A stretch of 33,354 nucleotides of DNA from Candidatus Poriferisocius aerobius. GTDB lineage: Bacteria; Actinomycetota; Acidimicrobiia; Acidimicrobiales; Bin134. The position numbers and the translations under genes are program-made. Positions 14,302 to 25,745 of the stretch are shown one piece after another. The notes under the pieces are model-generated. The model was given only the letters and a program-made list of their open reading frames with translations, was not told the origin of the DNA and searched no databases. The first letter of the stretch is position 1. Every line of letters starts with the position of its first letter. The DNA lies in contig JAPYOC010000174.1 of the NCBI GenBank assembly GCA_028278955.1, positions 1-33,354 of the forward strand. Reading direction: 5' to 3'.

Positions 14302-14601
14302 GTGCCATCTGAAACCCATGTCGAGCAGAGTCCGCTGGATCGCGACGGGGTTCTGGCGCTGGTCACCGAGTGTTTGGCGGAAATCTTGGAGATACCGCCC
14401 GACCGGATCGCCGAGGGCCAGGCCTTTGCCGACGACCTCGACGCCGATTCTCTTGCCCTCATCGAGCTGGTGGAGGCGTTGGAAGAGGAACTGAGCGAGA
14501 GGACGGTCGGATTCAGCATTGACGACGAAGACCTGGAGGATCTCAAGACGGTGCGAGATGCCGTCGACTATGTCCACGGCCGGCTGAGCCGAAGCTCCTG
14601 A
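14302..14601 (+). CDS. acpP: Acyl carrier protein
   Basis: From the GTG at 14302, with GGAG about 5 bases upstream, the protein has 99 residues, somewhat longer than the usual 77-85. The phosphopantetheine attachment Ser is S50 in DLDADSLALIELVEALEEE, the standard ACP helix II motif. The protein is strongly acidic. It shuttles acyl chains in fatty acid synthesis and is the natural donor for the neighbouring PlsX. The extra length is about a dozen N-terminal residues. An ATG at 14155 opens the frame earlier, but it overlaps plsX and the added part is not ACP-like. The stop overlaps the apparent CTG start of rnc. Confidence 0.92.
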   Translation: MPSETHVEQSPLDRDGVLALVTECLAEILEIPPDRIAEGQAFADDLDADSLALIELVEALEEELSERTVGFSIDDEDLEDLKTVRDAVDYVHGRLSRSS

Positions 14602-15311
14602 CTGCCGACCCCGATCTCGCTGCGCTGGCCGATCGCCTCGGCTACCGCTTCACCCGCCCCAGCCTGCTGGTCGAGGCGCTGACCCATCGTTCTTGGTGCG
14701 CCGACCACGCCGGGGCGCCCTCCAACGAGCGGCTGGAGTTCTTGGGCGACTCCGTCTTGGCCCTCGTGGTGACCGACCACATCTACACCGCGTTTCCGGA
14801 GATGGCTGAGGGCCAGCTCGCCCCTTTGCGAGCTGAAGTGGTGCGGGCCGAGACGCTGGCTGATCTGGCCGGCGAGCTTCAGCTGGCGAAGGCCATCCGC
14901 CTTGGGCGGGGCGAGGAGGTCTCGGGAGGAAGGGAGAAGCCGTCGATTCTCTCTGACGCCATGGAGGCGGTGATCGGGGCGGTCTACCTAGATGCCCCTT
15001 GGGAGGTTCTGATCGATCTGGTCCGGGGGTGGCTGGCCGCGCCCATTGCCGCAGCTTCTCAAGGTCCCGGTTTCCGGGATTTCAAGACCAGATTGCAGGA
15101 GTACTGCGCCCGCTGCGGCTACGAGGCGCCCGAGTACCGGCTGTCTGAGAAGGGCCCCGACCACGCCAAGCGGTTCTCGGCCGTTGTGCGCATGAACGGC
15201 AAGGAGCGGGGCCGGGGCGGGGGCCGGTCCAAAAAGCAGGCCGAGCAGGCCGCCGCCGCCGCCGCCTGGCAGACCCTGGATCTCGAGGCGGTTGCCGCCG
15301 TCACCCCATGA
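14598..15311 (+). CDS. rnc: Ribonuclease III, apparently starting at CTG
   Basis: RNase III cuts double-stranded RNA in rRNA precursors. The catalytic domain carries ALTHRSW near residues 27-33, the signature NERLEFLGDSVL at 43-54, and SDAMEAVIGAVYLD with the second acidic pair. A dsRNA-binding domain (about 155-232) ends with SKKQAEQAAAAAAW. With the CTG at 14598 the protein has 237 residues and begins TADPDLAALADRLGYRF, a normal RNase III N-terminus. There is no ATG, GTG or TTG in frame before the TTG at 14742, which falls inside the catalytic signature. The CTG overlaps the acpP stop as CTGA, so translational coupling probably drives initiation. No strong ribosome binding site is visible. 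Confidence 0.9.
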   Translation: MTADPDLAALADRLGYRFTRPSLLVEALTHRSWCADHAGAPSNERLEFLGDSVLALVVTDHIYTAFPEMAEGQLAPLRAEVVRAETLADLAGELQLAKAIRLGRGEEVSGGREKPSILSDAMEAVIGAVYLDAPWEVLIDLVRGWLAAPIAAASQGPGFRDFKTRLQEYCARCGYEAPEYRLSEKGPDHAKRFSAVVRMNGKERGRGGGRSKKQAEQAAAAAAWQTLDLEAVAAVTP

Positions 15312-15339: not shown

Positions 15340-16185
15340 ATGATCGCATTGCCGGAAGCCGAGACCATCCGCCGCGACTTGGATCGAGAGCTGTCTGGGT
15401 TGCGGATCAAGTCGGTGGAGGTGGCAAAGGCGGGGTACGCCAAGCGGTCGGGGGGCGTGAAGAAGTTCGCCGCCCGGCTGGAGAAGGCCAAGATCACCAG
15501 CGTGCGCCGTCGGGGCCTGTACTTGATCGTGGGGTTGGACAGCGAGGATGTGTTGGTGGCCCACTTGGGCGCCGGCGGCCAGCTGCGCCGCAATGCCAAC
15601 CGGGATGATGTCGAACCCGACACCGTGGTGTCGATCACCTTCACCAAGAGCGGGCAGCTTCGGCTGGTGGACGGCGTCGGTGATGCCGGGCTGTTCTTGG
15701 TCGCGGCCGAAAAGCTGGCCGAAGAAGTCCCCGAGCTCGACGGGCTGGGCATCGACCCGCTAGATCAGCCGGTGCCCTGGCGGGTGTTCGGCCAGCTCCT
15801 CTTGGCCCAGGACGCCAAGCTGAAGGCGGTGCTGACCGATGACCAGGTAGTCGTCGGGCTAGGGGAGCTGTACTCCGACGAGATCCTCTTTTCCGCCGGC
15901 CTGCGATTCGACCGCCTCACGAGTTCGCTGGGGCCCCAGGAGGTCAGGCGCTTGCACCGGGCGATGGTGGAGACCCTCCACGACGCGGCAAAACATCGGG
16001 GCACCACCCTCGAGGACGGTCTCTACGTTGACGTCCACGGTCAGCCGGGCGGCTACGGAGAATATGTGAACGTGTTCAAGCAAGCGGGCCAGAAGGGCCG
16101 GCCCTGTCCCCGCTGCCACCGCCCCATCCAGAAATACCGCTTCCGCCGCCGGTGGACCTACTACTGCGAGCAGTGCCAGATCTGA
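15340..16185 (+). CDS. mutM: Fpg/Nei-fold DNA glycosylase-like protein lacking canonical catalytic residues
   Basis: At 281 residues this has the Fpg/MutM layout: N-terminal beta sandwich, helix-two-turn-helix (about 150-190, VVVGLGELYSDEILFSAG), and C-terminal zinc finger with C256, C259, C276 and C279, including the expected Arg in RRRWTYYC. It sits in the mutM position between rnc and smc. However, the N-terminus reads MIALPEAETI instead of MPELPEVETI. The catalytic Pro and Glu right after Met are therefore Ile and Ala. The usual active-site Lys (in RRxKYL) is Leu60 and the conserved Asn of GIGNIY is Glu176, while His75 is kept. The ATG at 15340 is well placed, with GAGGAG 7 bases upstream. 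A TTG at 15349 would give M-P-E but has no spaced ribosome binding site. Lesion-cutting activity is doubtful. Confidence 0.85.
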   Translation: MIALPEAETIRRDLDRELSGLRIKSVEVAKAGYAKRSGGVKKFAARLEKAKITSVRRRGLYLIVGLDSEDVLVAHLGAGGQLRRNANRDDVEPDTVVSITFTKSGQLRLVDGVGDAGLFLVAAEKLAEEVPELDGLGIDPLDQPVPWRVFGQLLLAQDAKLKAVLTDDQVVVGLGELYSDEILFSAGLRFDRLTSSLGPQEVRRLHRAMVETLHDAAKHRGTTLEDGLYVDVHGQPGGYGEYVNVFKQAGQKGRPCPRCHRPIQKYRFRRRWTYYCEQCQI

Positions 16186-23845: not shown

Positions 23846-24229
23846 GTGGCAGTAAGACTCCGGCTTATGCGGATGGGCAAGAAGAAGCAGCCCACGTACC
23901 GTGTGGTGGCCGCCGACTCCCGCAAAGCCCGCAACGGGCGCTTCATCGAGATCGTGGGCACCTACAACCCCCGCCAGGAGCCGTCTCTGATAGAGATCGA
24001 CAATCAGCGGGCGGTGCACTGGCTTCGCCACGGGGCCCAGCCCAGCGAGCGGGTGCAGAAGCTGTTGGTCATATCGGGCGCATGGGCGGAATTCGCCGAT
24101 GAAGCCGGGTCTGCGGCTGTTCCTCCCGCCAAGGTGACCACGGCCGAGTCGGCCGCTGCCCCTGAGAGCCGAGAGCCTGGTGACGAGCAAGCAGCTGATG
24201 GCGAGAAAGCAGAGGACGGGGAGTCGTGA
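23846..24229 (+). CDS. rpsP: 30S ribosomal protein S16 with acidic C-terminal tail
   Basis: S16 is an early-binding 30S assembly protein. The GTG at 23846 gives MAVRLRLMRMGKKKQPTYR, the normal S16 N-terminus, and RNGRFIEIVGTYNPRQEP is conserved. The S16 core takes about 80 residues. The protein continues to 127 residues with a tail rich in Ala, Glu and Asp (from about 90 on), absent in E. coli S16 though extensions are known in actinobacteria. The stop overlaps the khpA start as GTGA. The genes rpsP-khpA-rimM-trmD-rplS form the classic operon. Confidence 0.95.
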   Translation: MAVRLRLMRMGKKKQPTYRVVAADSRKARNGRFIEIVGTYNPRQEPSLIEIDNQRAVHWLRHGAQPSERVQKLLVISGAWAEFADEAGSAAVPPAKVTTAESAAAPESREPGDEQAADGEKAEDGES

Positions 24230-24549
24230 GCGACACTGATTTCGGGGCGGACAACCCCGACTACGAAGATGATGATTTCGACGAAGCGGGCGGCGGCAAC
24301 GCCATTGAGGCCCCGACGGCGAGAAACGTTTTGGAGTACCTGGTCAAGTCGGTGGTGGAGAACCCCGGCGAGGTGGAGGTAGAGGTAGTCGAGCGACAGG
24401 GCTCGATCACACTGGAAGTCACCGTGGCCGATGGGGACATGGGCCGGGTCATCGGTCGTCGGGGCCGAGTGGCCAATTCCATTCGCACCCTGGTGCGGGC
24501 TGCGGCCAGCAAGGACGGCAGCTCCGTCGACGTCGATTTCATTGACTGA
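24226..24549 (+). CDS. khpA: KH-domain RNA-binding protein KhpA (YlqC family)
   Basis: This is a small single-KH RNA-binding protein. In Gram-positive bacteria KhpA pairs with KhpB and affects cell division and RNA levels. The GTG start at 24226 overlaps the rpsP stop. The KH core is seen in residues 30-107: ARNVLEYLVKSVVENP, then the GxxG loop in MGRVIGRRGRVANSIRTLVRA. An unusual acidic N-terminal extension of about 30 residues (YEDDDFDEAGGG) precedes the normal 77-residue domain. Its stop is in the same frame as rimM, 15 bases upstream of that gene's first possible start. Confidence 0.92.
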   Translation: MSDTDFGADNPDYEDDDFDEAGGGNAIEAPTARNVLEYLVKSVVENPGEVEVEVVERQGSITLEVTVADGDMGRVIGRRGRVANSIRTLVRAAASKDGSSVDVDFID

Positions 24550-24564
24550 TCAGCACGGGCGCGT

Positions 24565-25026
24565 CTGCTGCTAGAGGTTGGGCGTATCGACCGGGCTCAC
24601 GGGGTCCGGGGGGAAGTGGTGGTCACGCTGTGGACCAACCGCGCCGAGCGGCTCGAGAGGGGGGCAGTGCTCGCCACCGACCTCGGCAAGCTCACCGTGG
24701 CCGATACCCGGGCCTATCAGCAGCGCTGGATCATGCGGTTCGCCGAGATCGGCGACAGAGACGCGGCCGATTCCGTGCGAGGACAGGCGCTGAGGGCCGA
24801 GCCCCTATCCGACCCCGACGAGCTGTGGGTTCACGAGCTGATCGGCATGACGGTGTGCGAGCCCGATGGCACCGAGCGGGGGAAGGTCGAGGCGGTGCAG
24901 GCGAATCCGGCCAGCGATCTTCTCGTGCTGGAATCCGGGGTCCTGGTGCCGCTCACCTTCCTTGTCAAGCGATTGGGCGACCGGCTGATTGTGGATGGCC
25001 CCGACGGGTTGTTCGACGATCCGTGA
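24565..25026 (+). CDS. rimM: Ribosome maturation factor RimM, apparently starting at CTG
   Basis: RimM helps mature the 3' domain of 16S rRNA and binds S19. The conserved N-terminus LEVGRIDRAHGVRGEVVV is encoded at about 24568-24624, and the PRC-barrel domain follows with ELWVHELIGMTV near residue 87. The in-frame codons between the khpA stop (24547-24549) and this motif include no ATG, GTG or TTG, only two adjacent CTG codons at 24565 and 24568. The GTG at 24616 is the first standard start, and using it would delete the conserved strand. From 24565 the protein has 153 residues. The stop overlaps trmD as GTGA. No good ribosome binding site is visible, so reinitiation after khpA is likely. Confidence 0.88.
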   Translation: MLLEVGRIDRAHGVRGEVVVTLWTNRAERLERGAVLATDLGKLTVADTRAYQQRWIMRFAEIGDRDAADSVRGQALRAEPLSDPDELWVHELIGMTVCEPDGTERGKVEAVQANPASDLLVLESGVLVPLTFLVKRLGDRLIVDGPDGLFDDP

Positions 25027-25745
25027 GGGTCGACGTCTTCACCATCTTCCCCTCGGTGCTCGAGGCGTTCTTGGGCTTCGGCGTTATCGGAAGGGCGGTG
25101 GATCAGGGTCGCCTTGATGTGCGGGTTCGCGATCTCAGAGCCGGCGCGGGCGACGTCCGCCGCTCGGTGGACGACGCCCCGTTCGGCGGCGGCGCGGGGA
25201 TGGTCATGATGCCAGAACCCCTGTTCAACGCGGTCGAGCAGGCTGATCCGCCGAGACCGCTGTTTCTGCTGGGGCCCGCAGGACGCCGGTTCGACCAGGC
25301 CACTGCCCAGGAGTTGGCCTCCGGCCGCGGTTTCTCCCTGTTGTGCGGCCGCTATGAGGGGGTGGATCAGCGGGTTCGAGATCACCTGGTGGACGGGGAG
25401 CTCTCCGTCGGGGACTTTGTGCTGGCCGGCGGCGAGCCGGCGGCGATGGCGGTCATCGAGGCGGTGGGGAGGCTTGTTCCCGGGGTGCTGGGGAATGAGC
25501 TGTCGGCGGCCCACGAGTCGTTCAGCGAGGGCTTGCTGGAGCATCCCCACTACACCCGGCCGGCCGAATTCCGGGGTTGGCGGGTGCCTGATGTGCTGCG
25601 GTCGGGGGATCATGGCCGCGTGGATCGCTGGCGGAAAGCCCAATCGCTGGCCCGGACAACGGCCTCGCGGCCCGATCTCATCGAAGCCCGCGGCGGTTTG
25701 ACCGATGCCGAGCGAGCGCTTCTCGAAGAGTTCGGCCTTGCCTGA
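25023..25745 (+). CDS. trmD: tRNA (guanine(37)-N1)-methyltransferase
   Basis: TrmD methylates G37 of tRNAs that read C-starting codons, preventing frameshifts. The 240-residue protein begins at a GTG overlapping the rimM stop, giving MRVDVFTIFPSVLEAF, a standard start. The SPOUT knot motifs are clear: LCGRYEGVDQRV, SVGDFVLAGGEPAAM, LVPGVLGN, and the C-terminal HYTRPAEFRGWRVPDVLRSG. FGGGAGMVM near residue 57 is also conserved. It is the fourth gene of the rpsP operon and is followed by rplS after 71 bases. Confidence 0.96.
   Translation: MRVDVFTIFPSVLEAFLGFGVIGRAVDQGRLDVRVRDLRAGAGDVRRSVDDAPFGGGAGMVMMPEPLFNAVEQADPPRPLFLLGPAGRRFDQATAQELASGRGFSLLCGRYEGVDQRVRDHLVDGELSVGDFVLAGGEPAAMAVIEAVGRLVPGVLGNELSAAHESFSEGLLEHPHYTRPAEFRGWRVPDVLRSGDHGRVDRWRKAQSLARTTASRPDLIEARGGLTDAERALLEEFGLA

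Follow-up and report, generated by a model that had tools for sequence, protein, structure and literature searches.

A conserved CTG codon as the probable translation start of rimM in a genus of Acidimicrobiales

The question raised by this locus is where translation of rimM begins when its reading frame offers no standard start codon ahead of the conserved N-terminus of the protein. The window, which is the whole stretch of 33,354 nt that was analysed, is contig 84 of a fragmented assembly (2.48 Mb, 225 contigs) from a genus of uncultured Acidimicrobiia and carries a run of rpsP, khpA, rimM and trmD on the forward strand. The first gene of this run, rpsP (S16; 23846..24229; PF00886, 88.5 bits), is followed by khpA (24226..24549; PF13083, 78.1 bits), whose TGA stop at 24547-24549 lies in the rimM frame. 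From 24550, in the same frame as khpA, the codons read TCA GCA CGG GCG CGT CTG CTG CTA GAG GTT GGG CGT ATC. The initial annotation had stated that no ATG, GTG or TTG precedes the conserved RimM N-terminus and that only two adjacent CTG codons (24565 and 24568) could serve as starts, and the codons of the window confirm this for the whole interval from the khpA stop. The first downstream in-frame standard start is the GTG at 24616, the first of two in-frame GTG codons (24616 and 24619; 24616..24621). With CTG 24568..24570 as the putative start codon, the spacer behind khpA has a length of 18 nt (24550..24567) and contains no standard start, and the rimM coding region comprises 152 aa (24568..25026). 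Its stop is overlapped by the GTG of trmD (25023..25745; GTGA), for which TrmD matches were found in relatives.

The identity of the gene product is supported by profile matches. Translated from CTG 24568, it passes the cut-off of the RimM equivalog TIGR02273 (78.1 bits, cut-off 66.2) and that of the N-terminal RimM domain PF01782 (52.7 bits, cut-off 23.5), the latter match beginning at 24577. The C-terminal PRC-barrel PF24986 scores just under its cut-off (24.5 bits, cut-off 27), and no PDB sequence matched RimM at E 0.001. The domains, the equivalog-level score and the gene order rpsP-khpA-rimM-trmD are those of known RimM genes, but these start with ATG or GTG, whereas rimM of the window appears to start with CTG. 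Moving the start to GTG 24616 lowers the TIGR02273 score from 78.1 to 52.1 bits, which is under the cut-off of 66.2, and the PF01782 score from 52.7 to 25.6 bits with the loss of domain positions 2-16. The earlier statement that a start at this GTG would remove a conserved strand is in line with these values.

RimM was present in 38 of 41 genomes and in 18 of the 21 same-genus relatives, so that 19 genus rows, including the window, were available for the comparison of the khpA-rimM junction that had been proposed initially. This comparison places the start at CTG 24568. The column of this codon contains CTG in 16 of the 19 rows, TTG in one (L009) and CAA in two (L014, L019). It is therefore of the NTG type in every genus row except for the two with CAA, and both of these have a GTG two codons upstream. 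A GTG three codons upstream is found in four of the CTG rows (L011, L012, L013, L017). In six of the 19 rows (L002, which is the window, L003, L015, L016, L018 and L020), the frame is closed by a stop 6-7 codons upstream, and any standard start ahead of the conserved segment is lacking; this recurrence is more than chance. For seven rows (L004-L010), the frame is open back into khpA, with standard starts 18 to 61 codons before the column, the nearest ones at 18 to 56 codons and overlapping khpA in another frame. A longer form of RimM in these seven rows would be compatible with the stop positions taken alone. The distance from the khpA stop to the CTG column differs across the genus (18, 19, 28, 35, 85 or 90 nt, with 90 nt seen in one relative), as do the frame offsets (0, 1 and 2). 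Separate assemblies agree on the rimM CTG, including a 3.8-Mb single-contig genome.

The pattern of substitutions changes at the same position. The codon after the CTG column encodes leucine in all 19 rows with a free wobble position (CTC 6, CTA 5, CTG 5, CTT 3). Across codons +1 to +15, pairwise differences at codon positions 1, 2 and 3 amount to 218, 0 and 1016, comprising 957 synonymous and 218 non-synonymous differences. Codons -6 to -1 show 501, 501 and 587 differences at these positions, with 107 synonymous versus 779 non-synonymous ones, and thus look non-coding. These counts cover pairs of related rows and are hence non-independent events; the shift in pattern at 24568 is still sharp. 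Protein-type constraint begins directly after CTG 24568.

Outside the genus, all 19 genomes of the same order matched RimM, and 11 of these loci (L021-L031) were compared. The exact column of the CTG is occupied by GTG in L021 and by ATG in L023, L025 and L029 (4 of 11), and in the remaining seven (L022, L024, L026, L027, L028, L030, L031) a standard start is located 1 to 14 codons before this column. As a control for the codon itself, 362 conserved leucine columns from 20 gene families of the neighbourhood were inspected, of which 19 were CTG with at most one TTG, nine were all CTG and 103 were all NTG. Since 19 of the 362 columns are CTG-like, the invariance of one leucine codon is on its own only mild evidence. 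The case for the CTG start is built on codon invariance, the coding boundary, the absence of alternative starts and the outgroups taken together. With these combined, rimM translation probably starts at CTG 24568 (probability about 0.88), in an intact gene of 152 residues with an M-L-E-V-G-R N-terminus and the predicted product fMet-LEVGRIDRAHG....

Several other explanations have to be weighed against this reading. From the window alone, CTG 24565 and CTG 24568 are indistinguishable, and translation could begin one codon upstream. In the genus, however, the column of 24565..24567 is unconserved (CTT 7, CCT 7, CTG 2, TCT 2 and TTT 1 in 19 rows), and a codon other than CTG in 17 of the 19 rows makes this start very improbable. 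The CTG start suggested by the initial annotation is thereby well supported, but narrowed to 24568 and not upheld for 24565, with CTG in 2 of 19 rows. A shortened RimM with its start at GTG 24616 or 24619 would use the first standard start codons of the frame, and position 24619 is GTG in all 19 genus rows. Nevertheless, the 15 codons ahead of these GTG codons evolve as protein with zero second-position differences in 19 genomes, the segment LEVGRIDRAHGVR would be left out, and the form starting at 24616 shows the loss of profile score described above, which leaves little probability for truncation.

The fragmented state of the window assembly could also suggest that a standard start was erased by a sequencing or assembly error. 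This alternative is contradicted by five other genomes of the genus that are start-less at the same site and have spacers unlike that of the window, so that an error is extremely unlikely. Finally, khpA and rimM share one frame in the window, which makes it conceivable that TGA readthrough or frameshifting yields a KhpA-RimM fusion. A conserved frame relation was not found across the genus, where all three offsets (0, 1 and 2) occur and the genes are separated by 18 to 90 nt, and the codons of the spacer evolve as non-coding; the probability of a fusion is consequently close to negligible.

A start at CTG 24568 raises the further question of whether other genes of the genus begin in the same way. 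A single automatic criterion for start-less genes was applied to 21 gene families of the neighbourhood in genus and outgroup stretches. Strictly start-less in the genus stretches were rimM at 5 of 18 places and rnc at 13 of 16, with zero cases in 18 other families. The flag for rpsP (14 of 18) is an artefact, as its standard start sits just beyond the cut used. In the longer outgroup stretches, rimM was start-less at 0 of 17 places and rnc at 2 of 13, both of the latter showing a CTG upstream of the conserved part. A gene that we take to be YraN-like was start-less at 2 of 14 outgroup places (L378 in G027 and L382 in G032). One of them shows a CTG upstream of the conserved part, and a CTGA motif is visible before the conserved part in L378.

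The parallel with rnc that had been drawn initially holds. This gene (14598..15311, forward strand; TIGR02191, 229 bits) has an apparent CTG start at 14598-14600, which overlaps the acpP stop at 14599-14601 as CTGA in the window, and its start column is CTG at all 22 genus loci. At 18 of them, the interval from the preceding in-frame stop to the CTG is free of standard starts, and the remaining four have one only 61-76 codons upstream. Downstream of the CTG, the first standard start occurs at codon +9 or later. The CTG codon of rnc is, in addition, constrained by the overlapping acpP reading.

Another gene with this property encodes an Fpg-like glycosylase, with its own copy on contig 39 (PF01149, 65.4 bits; PF06831, 63.0 bits). 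Its start column is CTG in all 17 genus loci with a close match and ATG or GTG in all 13 outgroup loci read, a count that does not cover another three outgroup genomes with close matches over the full length. An in-frame stop is located at most 11 codons upstream with no standard start in between in 14 of the 17 genus loci. PDB chains of Fpg begin at a proline aligned to residue 2. This argument was down-weighted because a MutM relative in the window encodes MIALPE, so that proline need not follow Met1 in this genus.

The MutM relative itself (15340-15351) has an ATG at 15340. All 16 genus rows shown encode MIALPE, and AGGAG precedes the ATG in genus rows. In contrast to the CTG of the Fpg-like gene, the matching leucine codon here stands behind an ATG and varies (TTG 9, CTA 6 and CTG 1 in 16 genus rows). 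A proline that does not follow Met1 is unusual for Fpg enzymes and may reflect an altered activity or, in the window, a start at TTG 15349.

For a broader view, 263 single-copy families were scanned by codon signature, covering up to 460 kb of each genome. A first scan, which flagged dozens of genes and was affected by leader DNA shared among close relatives, was superseded by these codon-signature scans. Among the 263 families, no further robust CTG start was detected, and 214 have a conserved ATG, GTG or TTG column. The automatic filters of the scans did not cleanly pick up the Fpg-like gene, which had been spotted by eye in the first scan; therefore, three in 263 is a lower bound. CTG starts are rare in the genus, with three supported cases among 263 families, and the trait is neither confined to the genus nor common in it. 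The initial suggestion of a wider use of CTG initiation in this lineage is thus weakly supported through the addition of the Fpg-like glycosylase, but not extended by any further robust case in the 263 families.

One candidate, miaA, was rejected or is doubtful at best. A standard start is present 13 or 25-27 codons upstream at most genus loci, and the column is leucine or valine in most outgroup loci, reading as internal. The N-terminus of miaA (L199-L219) is ambiguous, as the P-loop strand opens with a CTG at most genus loci but the upstream standard starts occur at variable positions; miaA of G014 has no standard start between codons -64 and +32.

Could CTG serve this lineage generally as a fourth start codon, enabled by an altered initiation apparatus? 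This appears unlikely. Three genus-wide CTG starts in 263 families (~1%) contrast with 0.024% of bacterial initiation codons being CUG (PMC11497404), but this ratio calls for caution, since the 0.024% is presumably annotation-based and would under-count CTG, which may inflate the contrast, and since two of the three genes were prior leads from the window. The sporadic start-less rnc at 2 of 13 outgroup places also fits a general use. On the other side stand the conserved standard-start columns in 214 of 263 families and the initiator tRNA of the relative G014, which has the usual GGG/CCC anticodon stem, so that a variant initiator tRNA was rejected there. The M1-type change of the E. coli initiator tRNA, which weakens the discrimination against CUG (PMC11497404), is not seen in G014. 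In G000, the genome of the window (93% complete), no exact match to the R-loop pattern was obtained and the loci read did not yield its initiator tRNA. An unusual mRNA structure at the rimM start was not seen either, with predicted energies of -23.1 kcal/mol as the rimM mean, -18.9 kcal/mol for the window and -19.9 kcal/mol for 284 standard starts. The G014 initiator tRNA and the mRNA structure offer no explanation for the tolerance of CTG. A more specific version would be that CTG is selectively kept in this sponge-associated lineage as a fourth start for a few proteins needed in low amounts (RimM, RNase III and the DNA glycosylase) and that its initiation apparatus accepts CUG more readily than those of E. 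coli and mycobacteria do; we regard this as an unlikely, speculative possibility.

The CTG of rimM is an instance, kept in the genus, of a known rare type of start, and no new mechanism is involved. The initiator tRNA would read CTG 24568 as formyl-methionine, the position of the ribosome at this codon being deduced from sequence comparison. CTG most likely took the place of an ATG or GTG before the genus diverged and would then have been kept, the exceptions being one CTG-to-TTG difference and the lineages with a GTG two or three codons upstream. The Shine-Dalgarno match ahead of it is weak in the window and weak to moderate over the genus rows. Duplex energies are -2.5 kcal/mol in the window and -3.8 kcal/mol as the mean of the 19 rimM rows, with comparison means of -5.2 kcal/mol for 284 standard starts and -4.3 kcal/mol for 300 internal CTG codons; the means for the other two genes are -6.2 (good) for the Fpg-like gene and -2.2 kcal/mol for rnc. 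Re-initiation by ribosomes arriving from khpA, which ends 18 nt upstream in the window, may help the rimM start, and re-initiation is likewise plausible after acpP, whose stop overlaps rnc; in one relative, though, khpA and rimM are as much as 90 nt apart. Slow initiation at CTG might be tolerated or even favoured if the cell requires less RimM than ribosomal proteins encoded in this operon, although a low dosage of RimM as the reason for CTG is a guess.

These observations can be compared with reported cases. According to PMC5622118 and PMC11497404, CUG likewise replaces AUG, GUG or UUG in rare bacterial starts, with two AUG-to-CUG switches among 61,358 ancestral AUG starts (PMC5622118) and a yield of 0.86% of that of AUG in E. 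coli (PMC11497404). Unlike a single recent switch, CTG is kept genus-wide in three conserved genes here. Among the NUG starts CUG is the weakest in E. coli, and genes very rarely switch to it; a CTG kept throughout a genus in several conserved genes would therefore be a clean natural case for studying selection on dosage through weak starts. In a mycobacterial start-codon selection (PMC4633059), ATG, GTG, TTG and ATT were active, CTG was not enriched (0.03%) and its paucity was noted; both groups are actinobacteria, but CTG is conserved in the present genus. For E. coli rimM, PMC5318159 cites Wikstrom et al. 1992 for a reported dependence of translation initiation on the structure of the mRNA. 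In both cases a peculiarity of the mRNA would govern how translation of this gene begins; since no unusual start structure is seen in the genus, the weak start codon may be another route to a similar end. A literature search of titles and abstracts found no paper on CTG starts of rimM or rnc in this group. For annotation, a gene finder restricted to ATG, GTG and TTG will predict rimM and rnc of these genomes as too short or too long.

The initial annotation had also called both genes essential, which does not hold for rimM. Two genomes of the same genus, G004 (95% complete) and G016 (98% complete), both among the smaller genomes, have no PF01782 match. In G016 (L404, 1480-1520), khpA runs directly into trmD, which overlaps the khpA stop, and in G004 (L405) khpA and trmD are about 74 nt apart with rimM missing. 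RimM therefore appears to be dispensable in the genus. Possible starts for trmD of G016 are an ATT (ATTAA) and a TTG that precedes it by a few codons.

A last candidate from the scans was a carboxymuconolactone-decarboxylase-like gene with a CTG directly after a TGA. Its frame is open across the TGA and the upstream half matches PF02627, so that it was rejected as a CTG start. In this AhpD-like gene (L229:1285-1878 in G014; G000:C129 around 1729-2106), the in-frame TGA lies within a CVVU (CxxU) motif, and tRNA-Sec (67.5 bits) is present in G000, G014 and G007. Judged by these features, the gene likely encodes a selenoprotein.
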